Shown here piece by piece: positions 30,180 to 34,914 of a DNA stretch of 48,998 nucleotides. Positions within the stretch are counted from its first letter, which is position 1. Every line of letters starts with the position of its first letter. This DNA is from Anaerolineaceae bacterium (GTDB lineage: Bacteria; Chloroflexota; Anaerolineae; Anaerolineales; Anaerolineaceae). A program made the position numbers and the translations under genes. The notes beneath the pieces were generated by a model, which made no database searches, was not told the DNA's origin, and was given only the letters and a program-made list of their open reading frames with translations. The DNA lies in assembly GCA_011620555.1 (NCBI GenBank), contig WOYY01000045.1, positions 1 through 48,998 of the forward strand. Direction: 5' to 3'.

Positions 30180-30455
30180 GGCCGTCCGCAAGGCGGGTTG
30201 GCCATCCTGATCGGCATCTTTGAGGACCCCTTCCCCAAAGTACCTGTTAATCTCTTCATCCAAAAGGAGATCACCCTCGCCGGTTCCCAGGGCTACAATT
30301 GGGACTTTCAGGACGCGCTCACGATCCTCGAACAAAACGACCTCTCCCTGGGGCCGCTCATCACCCACCGTTTACCCCTGGAAAAAGTGCAGGATGCCTT
30401 CAGTGTGCTCACCCAGCGCGGCAACCAGGCGATCAAGATCTTGATCGAAATGTAG
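30171..30455 (+). pseudogene. C-terminal fragment of a zinc-type alcohol dehydrogenase
   Basis: About 94 codons without a start match the end of medium-chain (threonine/sorbitol-dehydrogenase-like) dehydrogenases: PQGGLAILIGIFEDP, where the Rossmann fold ends, then LFIQKEITLAGSQGYNWDF, PLITHRLPLEKVQDAFSVL and a final AIKILIEM. The N-terminal catalytic zinc domain and most of the nucleotide-binding fold are gone, so this is a truncated, inactive copy. A possible terminator follows at 30479. It lies in the same direction as the GntR regulator downstream. Confidence 0.65.
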
Positions 30456-30712: not shown

Positions 30713-31468
30713 ATGAATGCCGTTATTAAAAAAATTGATTTTTCGAGTTCAGTGCCCTATTATGCTCAATTAAAAGAATTGATCAAGCAGGAAATCACGG
30801 AGGGCGTCTGGCGCAGCGAGGAGCAGCTGCCCAGCCACTCTGAGCTATGTGAAATGTACGACGTGAGCAAATCCGTCGTCCGCCAGGCCCTGAAAGAACT
30901 CGAACTGGAAGGTTACATCGTCCAGCGGCGGGGAAAGCTGACCGAAATCGTTGATAAGAAGATCACTGGCGACATCCTGCAAAAACTTTCCGGCACCTAT
31001 CAAAACATGGCCCGCCTGGGCATTCACCCGGTGACAAAAATCCTGCTCAACGAAGTGGTCAAAGCGCCCACGTCAATCAGTGACCGGCTGGGCCTGGCTC
31101 CCGGCAGCAAAGTGGTCAAACTGCATCGACTGCGCTTCATCGAGAACGAGCCGTTCGCCTTCATGCGCTCCTATGTCCCTTATGACCTCTGCCCAAAAAT
31201 CGCCGAGGTTGACCTGACGGGCAAATCACTTCTGGAAGAGATCAAAAGGGAATATGGCTACGAGATCGATTCCAGCCGGCGATCCATTGAAGCCGTGCTG
31301 GCAAATGAGGATGAGGCCAAGCTCTTGGAAATTCCGGTGGGGTCCGCCCTGCTGCTCTATAAGTCCGTCTCCTATATCAGCTCCGGCCGCGCCATCGGGA
31401 CGACCAAGGTCCTCTTCCGCGGCGACCGGACCAAATTTGAAGTTGAAATCGGCAACTTTAAGGAATAA
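30713..31468 (+). CDS. GntR-family transcriptional regulator with UTRA domain
   Basis: A 251-residue HutC-type regulator. The winged helix at about 14-75 shows VPYYAQLKELIKQEI, LPSHSELCEMYDVSKSVVRQ and ALKELELEGYIVQRRGK. The UTRA effector domain follows (about 95-245), with LGLAPGSKVVKLHRLRFIENEPFAF, a mid-domain LLEEIKREYGYEI and the ending FRGDRTKFEVEIGN. Such proteins are usually repressors released by a sugar phosphate or similar ligand. Nothing next to it tells which. The ATG at 30713 has GGAG five bases upstream; the longer frame to 30587 overlaps the promoter and is rejected. The tRNA-Gly gene follows on the other strand. Confidence 0.9.
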   Translation: MNAVIKKIDFSSSVPYYAQLKELIKQEITEGVWRSEEQLPSHSELCEMYDVSKSVVRQALKELELEGYIVQRRGKLTEIVDKKITGDILQKLSGTYQNMARLGIHPVTKILLNEVVKAPTSISDRLGLAPGSKVVKLHRLRFIENEPFAFMRSYVPYDLCPKIAEVDLTGKSLLEEIKREYGYEIDSSRRSIEAVLANEDEAKLLEIPVGSALLLYKSVSYISSGRAIGTTKVLFRGDRTKFEVEIGNFKE

Positions 31469-31494
31469 GCCTTTTCCCCAACTTAAATAAATAA

Positions 31495-31566
31495 AGCGGG
31501 CGACCGGATTCGAACCGGCGAATGTCAGCTTGGAAGGCTGATGCCTTACCACTTGGCGACGCCCGC
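31495..31566 (-). tRNA. tRNA-Gly (anticodon UCC)
   Basis: The minus strand folds into a full cloverleaf. The acceptor stem is GCGGGCG / CGCCCGC, the D arm GCC-AAGTGGTAA-GGC, the anticodon loop CTTCCAA (anticodon UCC, reading GGA/GGG) and the T loop TTCGAAT. The discriminator base is U, as normal for glycine. CCA is not encoded. A 28-bp direct repeat begins 20 bases before its 5' end. Confidence 0.95.
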
Positions 31567-31585
31567 ATCAAATGCCACTCTATTT

Positions 31586-31613
31586 TACGCGACTCGCTTT
31601 ATTCGGTCAACCT
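31586..31613 (+). repeat. 28-bp direct repeat, tRNA-side copy
   Basis: A 28-base sequence beginning TACGCGACTCGCTTTATT recurs at 33451-33478 in the same orientation with one difference (T to C at position 14). The two copies bracket an AT-rich 1.84-kb segment carrying one membrane-protein gene. Confidence 0.85.
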
Positions 31614-31687
31614 GGAGATGATCCTTCAAGAATTTTAACACCCTCACCCGGGTTTAATCCTACAGCCAGGGTTTATCGTCATTCCTA

Positions 31688-33337
31688 TCATTCAACTAGC
31701 CAGCGGTAGTCTCCCATAGATGAATCAAATTGGATTATTCTTTCCTCAGGGTCGTAATTTGTGACATCACATTGAAAATCAAAGAAAGTGAAGGGGTCTT
31801 TAATAATCCGAGTTTCAGATCTGTCCACATCATAATAGACAAAAATATACTTTCCCAGATCACAAGTCACGGAACTCCAATTATCAGCGTGATCCGGAAT
31901 ATCCAAATAATAGTATTCAGCAAAAAGATTTTCTGTATTGTAGAGAACTCTTAGCGCCGATTCGGCTTCCCAGTCGCCTCGCAAGGGTAACATTTCAAAA
32001 GGTGACAAGACTTCATAGCCTGGAACAATAATCACAACTTTCGTGCCAGGCTCAATTCCTGGCGCTTGAACGAACAGATTCTTCCACAAAGATTCCTGCT
32101 GCTGCCAAATTTCACTGCGGATATTCTGATTGTGAATTTGGTAAGCCATGCCTAGGATTACCAAGGGGATAACAATAATATTCACACGCGACGCAACCTT
32201 CTCTCTTTCTTGACTGACTAAAATCAGCAAGGCTGAAAACAAGGCGACAAGGGCAATGGAAGCTCCTGGAATAGCCGCAAAATTCACCCTTGAACCATCC
32301 CCATAAAAAATGGGTTGCCATAGAAAAATAACAGGAATATATCCGGCCGCCCAGATCAAAACGCCAACCCCTGCTATCTTAAAAAGATCGCTGCTCATAT
32401 TTTTCTGTTCAACACGATCATGTGGTTCGATGGTTTTTCTATTCTTAAATTTAGGCCAAGCAACAATTAAATAGAGTAGGGCGAGAACAAAGCAAATAAC
32501 AATAAAGACCCAATATTTATTTTCGCCAAAACCCAATAAAAACGGCCCCACCCAATTAAAGAGAAAGATAAAAGCCCCTTGAACGAACCGCTCCAAGAGC
32601 GTAGGAACAGAAAATATCACATTTTCCAGGTAATTATCAGAAACATTCATTGCCAAAGGCTGAATGACAGATCTCCAGAGAATAAATAAGAAAACTGTCA
32701 AGCCAGTCGTTTGGACCCATAATCTTCTCTTTAAGGGCAACGAACGGTAGAAAAACAAAGCTAAAATATCCACCGTCAATACAATACCTAAACCAATTTC
32801 GTAGGTGCCGAGGCTCACGATAATTAATAAATTTGATAATAGTAATTTCCAGGCTCTGCCAGCTTTTAAATAGTCAATCATTAACAACACTGCCAGCAGG
32901 ACAAGCAGCAGAGCCAGTGTATTGATCTGAGTGACCAGCCAAGTCCTCGCATAGTTAACGGGATAAATCAAAAAAATCAAAGCCGCCGGCAATGCCAGCC
33001 ATGGGTAACGATCAAATGCCGAGCGAATAATTAAGTAAAAAACCACGGCTGACAAGAAAATTAAAAACCAATTCAAAAAATAATATAACGTGATATTCAA
33101 TTTGAATATTGGAGCAACGATGGCGTATAAAGCCATCATAAAGGGACGCCTGTCCGCAAGATCAACGATGGAAAATGAACCAAAAATATAGGGCTCAATC
33201 AACATATTCCAATCATCGCTTCGCAGGGGAGGATTATTAAAAAGCCGCGGGTCAAGGATATAAACCAGGGAAACACAAAACAAGATAATGAGCCAAGAGT
33301 ATGGTTCTGTTCTTTTTATTAAGCTTTTTATTCTCAT
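31688..33337 (-). CDS. Polytopic membrane protein, GT-C-like, in a repeat-flanked islet
   Basis: A 549-residue protein with about eleven hydrophobic helices and a C-terminal soluble domain of about 130 residues. The first outer loop has LRSDDWNMLIEPY (about 38-50), a di-acidic motif like that of GT-C glycosyltransferases, followed by DLADRRPFMMALY. I do not recognise a precise family. It resembles uncharacterised large membrane proteins often found among glycan genes, and the partial gene at the right edge has a related loop (LMDDARTLS). The gene is much AT-richer than gatB next to it, and the whole segment is bracketed by 28-bp direct repeats beside tRNA-Gly, so horizontal gain is likely. 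Confidence 0.75.
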   Translation of the reverse strand: MRIKSLIKRTEPYSWLIILFCVSLVYILDPRLFNNPPLRSDDWNMLIEPYIFGSFSIVDLADRRPFMMALYAIVAPIFKLNITLYYFLNWFLIFLSAVVFYLIIRSAFDRYPWLALPAALIFLIYPVNYARTWLVTQINTLALLLVLLAVLLMIDYLKAGRAWKLLLSNLLIIVSLGTYEIGLGIVLTVDILALFFYRSLPLKRRLWVQTTGLTVFLFILWRSVIQPLAMNVSDNYLENVIFSVPTLLERFVQGAFIFLFNWVGPFLLGFGENKYWVFIVICFVLALLYLIVAWPKFKNRKTIEPHDRVEQKNMSSDLFKIAGVGVLIWAAGYIPVIFLWQPIFYGDGSRVNFAAIPGASIALVALFSALLILVSQEREKVASRVNIIVIPLVILGMAYQIHNQNIRSEIWQQQESLWKNLFVQAPGIEPGTKVVIIVPGYEVLSPFEMLPLRGDWEAESALRVLYNTENLFAEYYYLDIPDHADNWSSVTCDLGKYIFVYYDVDRSETRIIKDPFTFFDFQCDVTNYDPEERIIQFDSSMGDYRWLVE

Positions 33338-33450
33338 GCCACCCTCAATGAGTAACCCCTTTGTTTAATGCCATTCAAAGAAAACCAAGGAAATCAAGGA
33401 AATCAAGCCGACTTTTCATTGGGCTGCCAGTAATATTTGCGACTAAATTC

Positions 33451-33478
33451 TACGCGACTCGCTCTATTCGGTCAACCT
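33451..33478 (+). repeat. 28-bp direct repeat, gatB-side copy
   Basis: The second copy of the repeat seen at 31586-31613. It covers the gatB stop codon (33472-33474) and the bases just past it, so the duplicated sequence contains the very end of gatB. This implies that gatB once lay directly beside tRNA-Gly. Confidence 0.85.
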
Positions 33479-34914
33479 TCGCCCCTGAGAGCTTTTTGCA
33501 GCAGCTCCCGGCTGGCCTTCGGGTCAGCCTTGCCGCGGGTTTCCCGCATCACCTGCCCCATGAACCAGCCAAACAGCCCTTCCTTGCCGCCGCGGTAGCT
33601 GGCGACCTCATCCGGGTTTGCCGCGAGGATCTTGTCAATCGCGGCCTGCAAGGCGGAATCGTCACTGACCTGGGCCAGCCCCTCTTCCTCCACAATCCTG
33701 ACCGGGGATTTGCCGCTCTCCTGCACCTTGACCAGCAGGGACTTGGCGGTGGCGTTGTTGATCATCCCGGCCTCCACCAGTCGGATCGCCTCGGCCAGGT
33801 CCTGCGGTTTGAGCACCAGCTCATCCGCGCTCACCCCGAGGTCATTTTGCATCCGCAGCACTTCGTTCATGATCCAGTTGGACACCACCTTGGGATCGCC
33901 GCCGTAGGCGCTCACGGCCGCTTCGTAATAATCCGAGATCGGCCGGTCAGACGTCAGGATATCCGCGTCATATTCGGGCAGGTCAAATTCGCGCCTGAAG
34001 CGCGCCCGCCGGGCCAAGGGCAGTTCCGGCAGCGAGGCGATCACGCCTTCGCGCCAGGCCTCGGTCAGCTCCAGCGGAAGCAGGTCCGGCTCCCGGAAAT
34101 AGCGATAATCCGCCTCGGTTTCCTTGGAGCGCATCTTGGTCAGCTTGCCTTTGGCGTCATCCCAATCCAGAGTCCAGGCTTCCACCCGCCCGCCCGATTC
34201 GACGACTTCGATCTGGCGTTCAACCTCTTTGAGGATCGCCGCCCGCACGGCCTCAATTGAGTTCACATTCTTGATCTCGGTCTTGGTGTTCAACACCGTG
34301 CTGCCCACCGTCCGAATCGAGACATTGGCATCGCAGCGCAGATGCCCCTTTTCCATATTGGCTTCGGAAATCCCGATCCAGCGCAGCAGCTGACGCAGCC
34401 GGATCAGGTATTGGGCGGCCTCATCCGCCGAACGCAAATCCGGCCCGGTGACCATTTCCACCAGCGGCACGCCGCAACGGTTGAAATCCACATAGCGCAC
34501 ACCGTGCTCATACTTGGTCTTGCCGGCGTCCTCTTCCAAATGCATCTTCTCAATGTTCACCCGCCGCACGCTGCCATCCGGCATCGGCAGGTCCAGATAG
34601 CCGCCCTTGCCCAGCGCCAGGTCAAACTGCGAGATCTGATAGCCCTTGGGCAGATCCGGGTAGAAGTAATTTTTGCGGTCGAAGAAGGAGGTCAGCCGGA
34701 TCTCGGAGTGCATCGCCGCGGCCAGCAGCGCGCCCTTCTCAACCGCGGCCTCATTCAACACCGGCAGCACGCCAGGCAGCCCCGTGCAGACCGGACAGAT
34801 GTTGGTATTGGGTTCATCTTCCCAGGAATCCGCCTTGCAGGCGCAGAAGATCTTGGTGGTGGTGTTCAGTTGGATGTGGGTCTCAAGCCCAATAATCACT
34901 TCATATTCGGTCAT
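33472..34914 (-). CDS. gatB: Asp-tRNA(Asn)/Glu-tRNA(Gln) amidotransferase subunit B
   Basis: A 480-residue GatB, the tRNA-binding and kinase subunit of the transamidase that makes Gln-tRNA(Gln) and/or Asn-tRNA(Asn). The N-terminal cradle shows YEVIIGLETHIQL (4-16), the metal-site cysteines in CACKADS and CPVCTGLPGVLP, then YFYPDLPKGYQISQFD and ANVSIR. The C-terminal helical and YqeY-like tail domain includes the GWFMGQVMRETRGKADP block that contacts tRNA. It follows gatA by 38 bases in the order gatC-gatA-gatB. The 28-bp repeat overlaps its stop codon but the reading frame is intact. Confidence 0.97.
   Translation of the reverse strand: MTEYEVIIGLETHIQLNTTTKIFCACKADSWEDEPNTNICPVCTGLPGVLPVLNEAAVEKGALLAAAMHSEIRLTSFFDRKNYFYPDLPKGYQISQFDLALGKGGYLDLPMPDGSVRRVNIEKMHLEEDAGKTKYEHGVRYVDFNRCGVPLVEMVTGPDLRSADEAAQYLIRLRQLLRWIGISEANMEKGHLRCDANVSIRTVGSTVLNTKTEIKNVNSIEAVRAAILKEVERQIEVVESGGRVEAWTLDWDDAKGKLTKMRSKETEADYRYFREPDLLPLELTEAWREGVIASLPELPLARRARFRREFDLPEYDADILTSDRPISDYYEAAVSAYGGDPKVVSNWIMNEVLRMQNDLGVSADELVLKPQDLAEAIRLVEAGMINNATAKSLLVKVQESGKSPVRIVEEEGLAQVSDDSALQAAIDKILAANPDEVASYRGGKEGLFGWFMGQVMRETRGKADPKASRELLQKALRGEG

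Follow-up and report, generated by a model that had tools for sequence, protein, structure and literature searches.

The window analysed, a stretch of 48,998 nt of DNA from an Anaerolineaceae bacterium, contains the gene gatB and, downstream of it on the same strand, the gene for tRNA-Gly. Between the two lies a short islet with a single inserted gene, bounded on each side by one copy of a direct repeat, and a GntR/UTRA regulator follows beyond the tRNA (Table 1). The repeat copies were identical at 27 of 28 positions and, when extended to 41 nt, at 36 of 41 (88%). The core sequence, read on the minus strand, is AGGTTGACCGAATARAGCGAGTCGCGTA. This 28-bp pair had been reported at both places in the original prediction, and a repeat search of the window gave the same result. 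Since none of 100 dinucleotide-shuffled versions of the window gave two such matches, a pair formed by chance was excluded.

Table 1. Features of the gatB/tRNA-Gly junction (positions in the window).
Feature	Position	Strand	Remarks
GntR/UTRA regulator, beyond tRNA-Gly	30713..31468	+	
tRNA-Gly (anticodon TCC)	31495..31566	-	sole tRNA with that anticodon among 32 identified in the assembly
tRNA-side repeat copy, predicted native tRNA-Gly promoter	31573..31613	-	-35 TTGACC 31605-31610, spacer 17, -10 TAAAAT 31582-31587; core 31586-31613
Inserted segment between the 28-nt cores, inner flanks included	31614..33450		1837 nt
Inserted gene, 549-aa multi-pass membrane protein, predicted GT-C glycosyltransferase fold	31688..33337	-	
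gatB-side repeat copy, promoter-like, faces the inserted gene	33438..33478	-	-35 TTGACC 33470-33475, spacer 17, -10 TAGAAT 33447-33452; core 33451-33478
gatB	33472..34914	-	stop TGA overlaps -35 of the gatB-side copy

A search for further copies, proposed with the original prediction, found exactly two in the 2.32-Mb assembly of the organism at up to three mismatches. At the same threshold, 147 family genomes contained the repeat in three places, namely these two and one at the gatB/tRNA-Gly junction of a relative, G012. A widespread intergenic element, which would have spoken against an insertion, was therefore ruled out. No exact match to the repeat was found in viral contigs, and partial matches were present in 3 plasmid and 12 phage records, respectively, with E values of 6-8 among the matches listed and none covering 80%.

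The stop codon of gatB (TGA, 33472-33474) lies inside the repeat and overlaps its TTGACC. A shift of this stop was observed (33472-33480): in G012, gatB ends with a TAA just before TTGACC, and the window has GAA at that place and stops at the TGA inside the -35 hexamer. The GntR/UTRA gene stands on the same side of tRNA-Gly in G012 too, about 2.1 kb off, which indicates that the islet has native sequence on both sides. At about 30200-30455, a reading frame was seen that by eye resembles the C-terminal portion of a zinc-type alcohol dehydrogenase and lacks the front portion, possibly a gene remnant.

The assembly, in 99 contigs, is fragmented, with 33 tRNA matches versus 46-48 in four relatives; hence, a second tRNA-Gly(UCC) could be absent from it. 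As a side observation, 13 of these 33 matches are no more than 300 bp from the end of a contig (C2, C4, C14, C26, C41, C61, C67, C74, C75, C82, and C90), as if repeats adjoining tRNAs had broken the assembly.

The repeat as a predicted tRNA-Gly promoter

On sequence grounds, the repeat corresponds to the tRNA-Gly(UCC) promoter, of the sigma-70 type (TTGACC-N17-TARAAT), and not essentially the end of gatB. The motif TTGACC-N17-TAAAAT was found 9-15 nt 5' of tRNA-Gly in all 12 genus members with a readable leader, the window included. The hexamers, their spacing and their position were conserved in this leader in these 12 genomes and most of the spacer was variable, which is what points to a promoter of this type. 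The motif also precedes tRNA-Gly when gatB stops at a different place or is separated from the tRNA by another gene. Thus, the original description of the repeat as the gatB end did not hold, since in relatives the promoter stays with tRNA-Gly even when no gatB end adjoins it; the description arose because gatB now stops at the TGA inside TTGACC.

Within 31400-33600 the two repeat copies were the top two promoter-like sites. In the whole genome, 32 tRNAs were found, three of them without a readable leader, and 24 of the 29 scored had a site with at least 9 of 12 matches within 70 nt 5' of the tRNA, against a mean of 2.1 and a maximum of 6 of 29 when the leaders were shuffled (200 rounds). The remaining five scored below 9 of 12, which counts against the promoter reading. 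The pattern TTGACN17-19TAAAAT occurred at 25 sites in the genome versus 2 for the reversed control pattern; five of the 25 stand directly before a tRNA, but 20 lie elsewhere, and these also count against it. The form of the gatB-side copy, TTGACC-17-TAGAAT, was also present just 5' of tRNA-Glu(TTC) and tRNA-Arg(GCG) of the same genome, although at the junction it precedes the new gene and not a tRNA.

The length of the duplicated sequence is uncertain (28 to ~41 bp) because the gatB-side copy agrees poorly with the tRNA-side copy beyond the core, with 4 mismatches in 13. From the core end to position 41 the tRNA-side copy is exactly that of G012, and the four changes in 13 are in the gatB-side copy. 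Nevertheless, chance would seldom give nine matches in 13 (at an identity of 28%, P 0.002), and so the duplication probably extended beyond the -10 box, the gatB-side copy having since drifted.

The junction in the genus

Sixteen genus genomes were searched, that of the window included, and the gatB/tRNA-Gly junction was readable in 12. In the other four, no tRNA was present in the 6.5 kb fetched past gatB (G003), only a gatB paralogue was found (G006 and G007), or the sequence ended inside gatB (G013). tRNA-Gly(TCC) mostly comes next after gatB in the genus. An empty site, consisting of gatB, one promoter and tRNA-Gly, was found in seven of the 12 (G012, G005, G001, G015, G002, G004, and G008; in G005 the contig stops within the tRNA), with 46-57 bp from the gatB stop codon to the tRNA. 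This is in agreement with the earlier proposal that gatB once abutted tRNA-Gly, the two nearest relatives being among the seven, and the comparison of relatives suggested at the time gave a single repeat copy at the empty sites, as predicted.

Four further junctions (G009, G010, G011, and G014) carried a CAAX-protease-type gene of 269-277 aa on the opposite strand, between gatB and the single promoter (PF02517 in the one gene tested). This gene is unrelated to the one inserted in the window and has no second promoter copy beside it. Given the well supported branches of the gatB tree, the CAAX-protease-type gene must have been gained or lost at the junction at least twice.

Two promoter copies at the junction were found in the window only (1 of 12). 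The inserted gene was absent from the gatB 3' flank in all 12 other genus members with a readable flank, and thus it is not the case that all relatives carry the gene with both repeats, an outcome that would have argued against an insertion. Ten other genus members gave no second copy of the tRNA-Gly leader, the best matches reaching 16-19 of 26 (offsets of at least 57 bp tested). Among the readable junctions, no intermediate was seen, whether a doubled promoter lacking the gene or the gene beside a single promoter.

Regarding the time of the event, the window genome groups with G012 in the gatB tree (97/95) and next with G005 (96/97), both of which have empty sites. One of 28 positions separates the two copies, whereas 3 and 4 separate them from the promoter of G012; being closer to each other than to G012, the copies would have been duplicated in their own lineage after the split, or evened out later. 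By these comparisons, the insertion appears to be younger than the split from G012, the nearest relative.

The inserted gene and its product

The inserted gene has a G+C content of 40% and a GC3 of 0.42, compared with 61% and 0.79 for gatB and 53% and 0.67 for the GntR gene (gatA/gatB GC3, 0.76-0.79). The whole window has 53% G+C, and the contrast of the gene with its wider surroundings is therefore smaller than with gatA/gatB. Apart from the gene, the islet contains two reading frames of at least 60 aa, of 69 and 74 aa, and both overlap it. Reading frames and families hence bore out the previous statement that a single AT-rich membrane-protein gene, without a recombinase, lies between the copies.

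No Pfam or NCBIfam family was assigned to the protein at E 0.1, no family was obtained from PHROGs, and a sequence-profile search of solved structures returned no matches. Its predicted structure (pLDDT 79.9, pTM 0.84) showed the GT-C membrane fold: Foldseek ranks 1-15 were all GT-C enzymes, among them STT3/PglB, PMT and ArnT (four at E ≤0.001, TM about 0.4). The fold resembled yeast oligosaccharyltransferase (Z 17.8, the highest; rmsd 5.3, 396 aligned), PglB (Z 17.3) and ArnT (Z 15.2), with sequence identities of only 9-13% to these structures. The residues D41-D42-W43 and R64 were invariant in the seven aligned homologues; by analogy with the acidic catalytic residues of the first outer loop in the GT-C superfamily, they may have a catalytic role.

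The best homologues in 201 genomes were found in G008 (45%) and G092 (35%), both in polysaccharide loci: the former stands amid NeuB and glycosyltransferase genes, and the latter adjoins an ABC-2 permease and a Wzt-type ATPase. The inserted protein is most likely a surface-polysaccharide glycosyltransferase dependent on polyprenyl-phosphate sugars. The homologous genes are likewise AT-rich (39% and 36% G+C), so AT-richness is in part a trait of the gene family and, taken alone, no proof of a distant donor. For a gain of the gene, its absence from the site in relatives is stronger evidence than its composition. The gene was probably acquired horizontally.

A phage origin of the gene was considered and rejected, as PHROGs gave no family and none of five pattern matches in viral contigs was confirmed. 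The non-coding inner flanks of the islet gave only short matches (17-27 bases) elsewhere in the genus. In the leader of the gene, at about 33380-33410, three near-repeats of a TTGATTTCC-like unit were seen by eye.

Origin of the islet

The explanation that we consider likely is that an acquired GT-C gene entered the gatB/tRNA-Gly junction, either by an illegitimate insertion that duplicated part of it or by insertion into a tandem-duplicated promoter, and that both neighbouring genes were left intact. The ancestral order, which the relatives show, was gatB, a single sigma-70-type promoter and tRNA-Gly, the stop codon standing about 46-57 bp from the tRNA. The GT-C gene entered this junction in the lineage of the window genome, leaving 28 to ~41 bp of promoter on either side. 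The tRNA-side copy would still serve as the promoter of tRNA-Gly(UCC), and the gatB-side copy, which points in the right direction ~110 nt before the new ATG, probably transcribes the inserted gene. Since gatB runs directly into the promoter, an insertion without duplication would break gatB or sever the apparently sole tRNA-Gly(UCC) from its promoter; an insertion into the gatB end or between promoter and tRNA would harm one of them, and an insertion that duplicates the junction, harming neither, would be the one to survive. The CAAX-protease-type insertions fit this scheme, because they are placed before the promoter, where no duplication is needed.

The molecular step would most likely have been illegitimate, through the repair of a staggered break or through insertion between promoter copies already duplicated in tandem. 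No integrase, transposase or recombinase was found in the islet by reading frames and family searches, and a dedicated integrase does not seem to be indicated. The original prediction had offered two routes. An insertion duplicating the junction agrees with the two copies found here versus one at each of the seven empty sites. Recombination at the repeat, the other route, found no positive evidence of a dedicated enzyme in an islet without a recombinase.

That the promoter was duplicated in tandem first, and the gene inserted later between the redundant copies, is a sub-case of the explanation above, which leaves the choice open; taken by itself, it is rather unlikely. Segmental tandem duplication does occur at tRNA loci of the genus (the tRNA-Val and tRNA-Gly arrays described below), and this makes it a reasonable alternative to insertion in one step. 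However, the arrays found duplicate parts of tRNAs and not promoters, side-by-side promoters were not seen in any tRNA-Gly leader, and the empty sites, with their 46-57 bp, fit only one. Under site-specific integration, the repeats would be the attL and attR ends of a small cassette that is itself non-autonomous and depends on an integrase acting in trans, with the tRNA promoter as target instead of the tRNA 3' end. Direct repeats of 28-41 bp around a single foreign gene next to a tRNA do resemble att repeats, and the junction took up a different gene in four relatives too. This is nevertheless improbable, given an islet without a recombinase, a repeat that occurs nowhere else in its own genome and has neither an exact viral-contig match nor an 80% phage or plasmid match, four CAAX-protease insertions without a second promoter copy, a gene for which viral contigs yielded no confirmed homologue, and inner flanks that do not recur in the genus beyond short matches. 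Quite improbable as well would be a bacterial mode of integration that uses the tRNA promoter as its attachment site and duplicates it at each insertion, the cargo obtaining a strong housekeeping promoter and the tRNA keeping its own.

The fragmented assembly, a contamination estimate of 3.57% and the AT-rich insert could suggest an artefact in which a foreign contig was joined through a short shared sequence. Two independent misjoins would then be needed, one per side and each restoring the native sequence; moreover, the two repeat copies are not identical and the insert has its best homologue among the 201 genomes within the genus itself (G008, 45%), which renders an artefact highly improbable. 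The repeats are laid out like a target-site duplication, with native gatB on one side and the native tRNA leader on the other, but insertion of a transposon is to be regarded as extremely improbable. No transposase is encoded in the islet, although one might act in trans, and of the five inverted pairs of at least 12 nt in 31000-34000 none is at the islet ends (shorter pairs would be missed at this threshold). Furthermore, the target-site duplications of common insertion sequences are shorter than 28 bp.

Genomic islands and prophages associated with tRNAs use a tyrosine integrase and an att core within the 3' part of the tRNA. The islet is similar to them in having foreign DNA next to a tRNA, direct repeats at the ends and an intact tRNA gene. 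It differs in that the repeat is the putative tRNA promoter, 5' of and outside the tRNA, and in having one gene, no integrase and a repeat unique to one place. Retrotransposons such as yeast Ty3 also insert just 5' of tRNA genes, although they are eukaryotic, driven by an integrase and targeted to Pol III genes, and nothing such was found here. In the tRNA-dependent lysogeny of mycobacteriophages, an integrase acts and the phage carries its own tRNA (PMC10865867). There, as here, an insertion at an essential tRNA locus survives since the lost function is made good; at the present junction, by contrast, this would be done by a second promoter copy and the tRNA is untouched. No report of promoter duplication at bacterial tRNA genes was found in a search of open-licence literature, in which the papers obtained dealt mostly with phage/ICE attachment sites and retrotransposons.

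The event is real, local and unusual. It illustrates the way in which a foreign gene can become established where a translation gene and a tRNA gene leave nearly no bases to spare, and may acquire a housekeeping promoter in the same step; should the gatB-side copy be active, a duplicated tRNA promoter would drive transcription of an enzyme for surface sugars. It also advises caution, as direct repeats near a tRNA gene are not necessarily att sites and here would be a promoter. Its interest is modest unless a second case shows a promoter used as a target.

The recurrence of the pattern was analysed at the other tRNA loci. A copy of the leader within 6 kb upstream reached 25 of 26 positions for tRNA-Gly and at most 18 of 26 for the other 28 readable tRNAs of the genome, in a test that detects offsets of at least 57 bp only and in which some tRNAs had less than 6 kb of upstream DNA. 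In G012, 38 tRNA leaders were examined of 46 Rfam matches, and two gave exceptions: tRNA-Val(CAC), with 26 of 26, which was a tandem array of tRNA parts without a promoter copy, and tRNA-Pro(GGG), with a weak 19 of 26. A recurrent duplication of promoters at tRNAs was hence rejected, being absent, at offsets of at least 57 bp, from the 28 other tRNAs of the genome and from 36 of the 38 G012 leaders, and the promoter duplication looks like a single event and not a system.

The tRNA-Val array of G012 (C1, 1671200-1677400) consists of 5.1 tandem copies of a 65-bp unit between the promoter and an intact tRNA-Val(CAC), the unit resembling the 5' half of tRNA-Val with an extra CCC..GGG stretch. One degenerate copy of this unit was seen by eye at the same place in the genome of the window (C61, ~223-400). 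Additionally, tandem units of 89 and 103 bp were observed 3' of tRNA-Gly in G002 (L032, 24-207) and G009 (L030, 9179-9440), respectively, each made up of the 3' end of tRNA-Gly and a terminator-like stretch.
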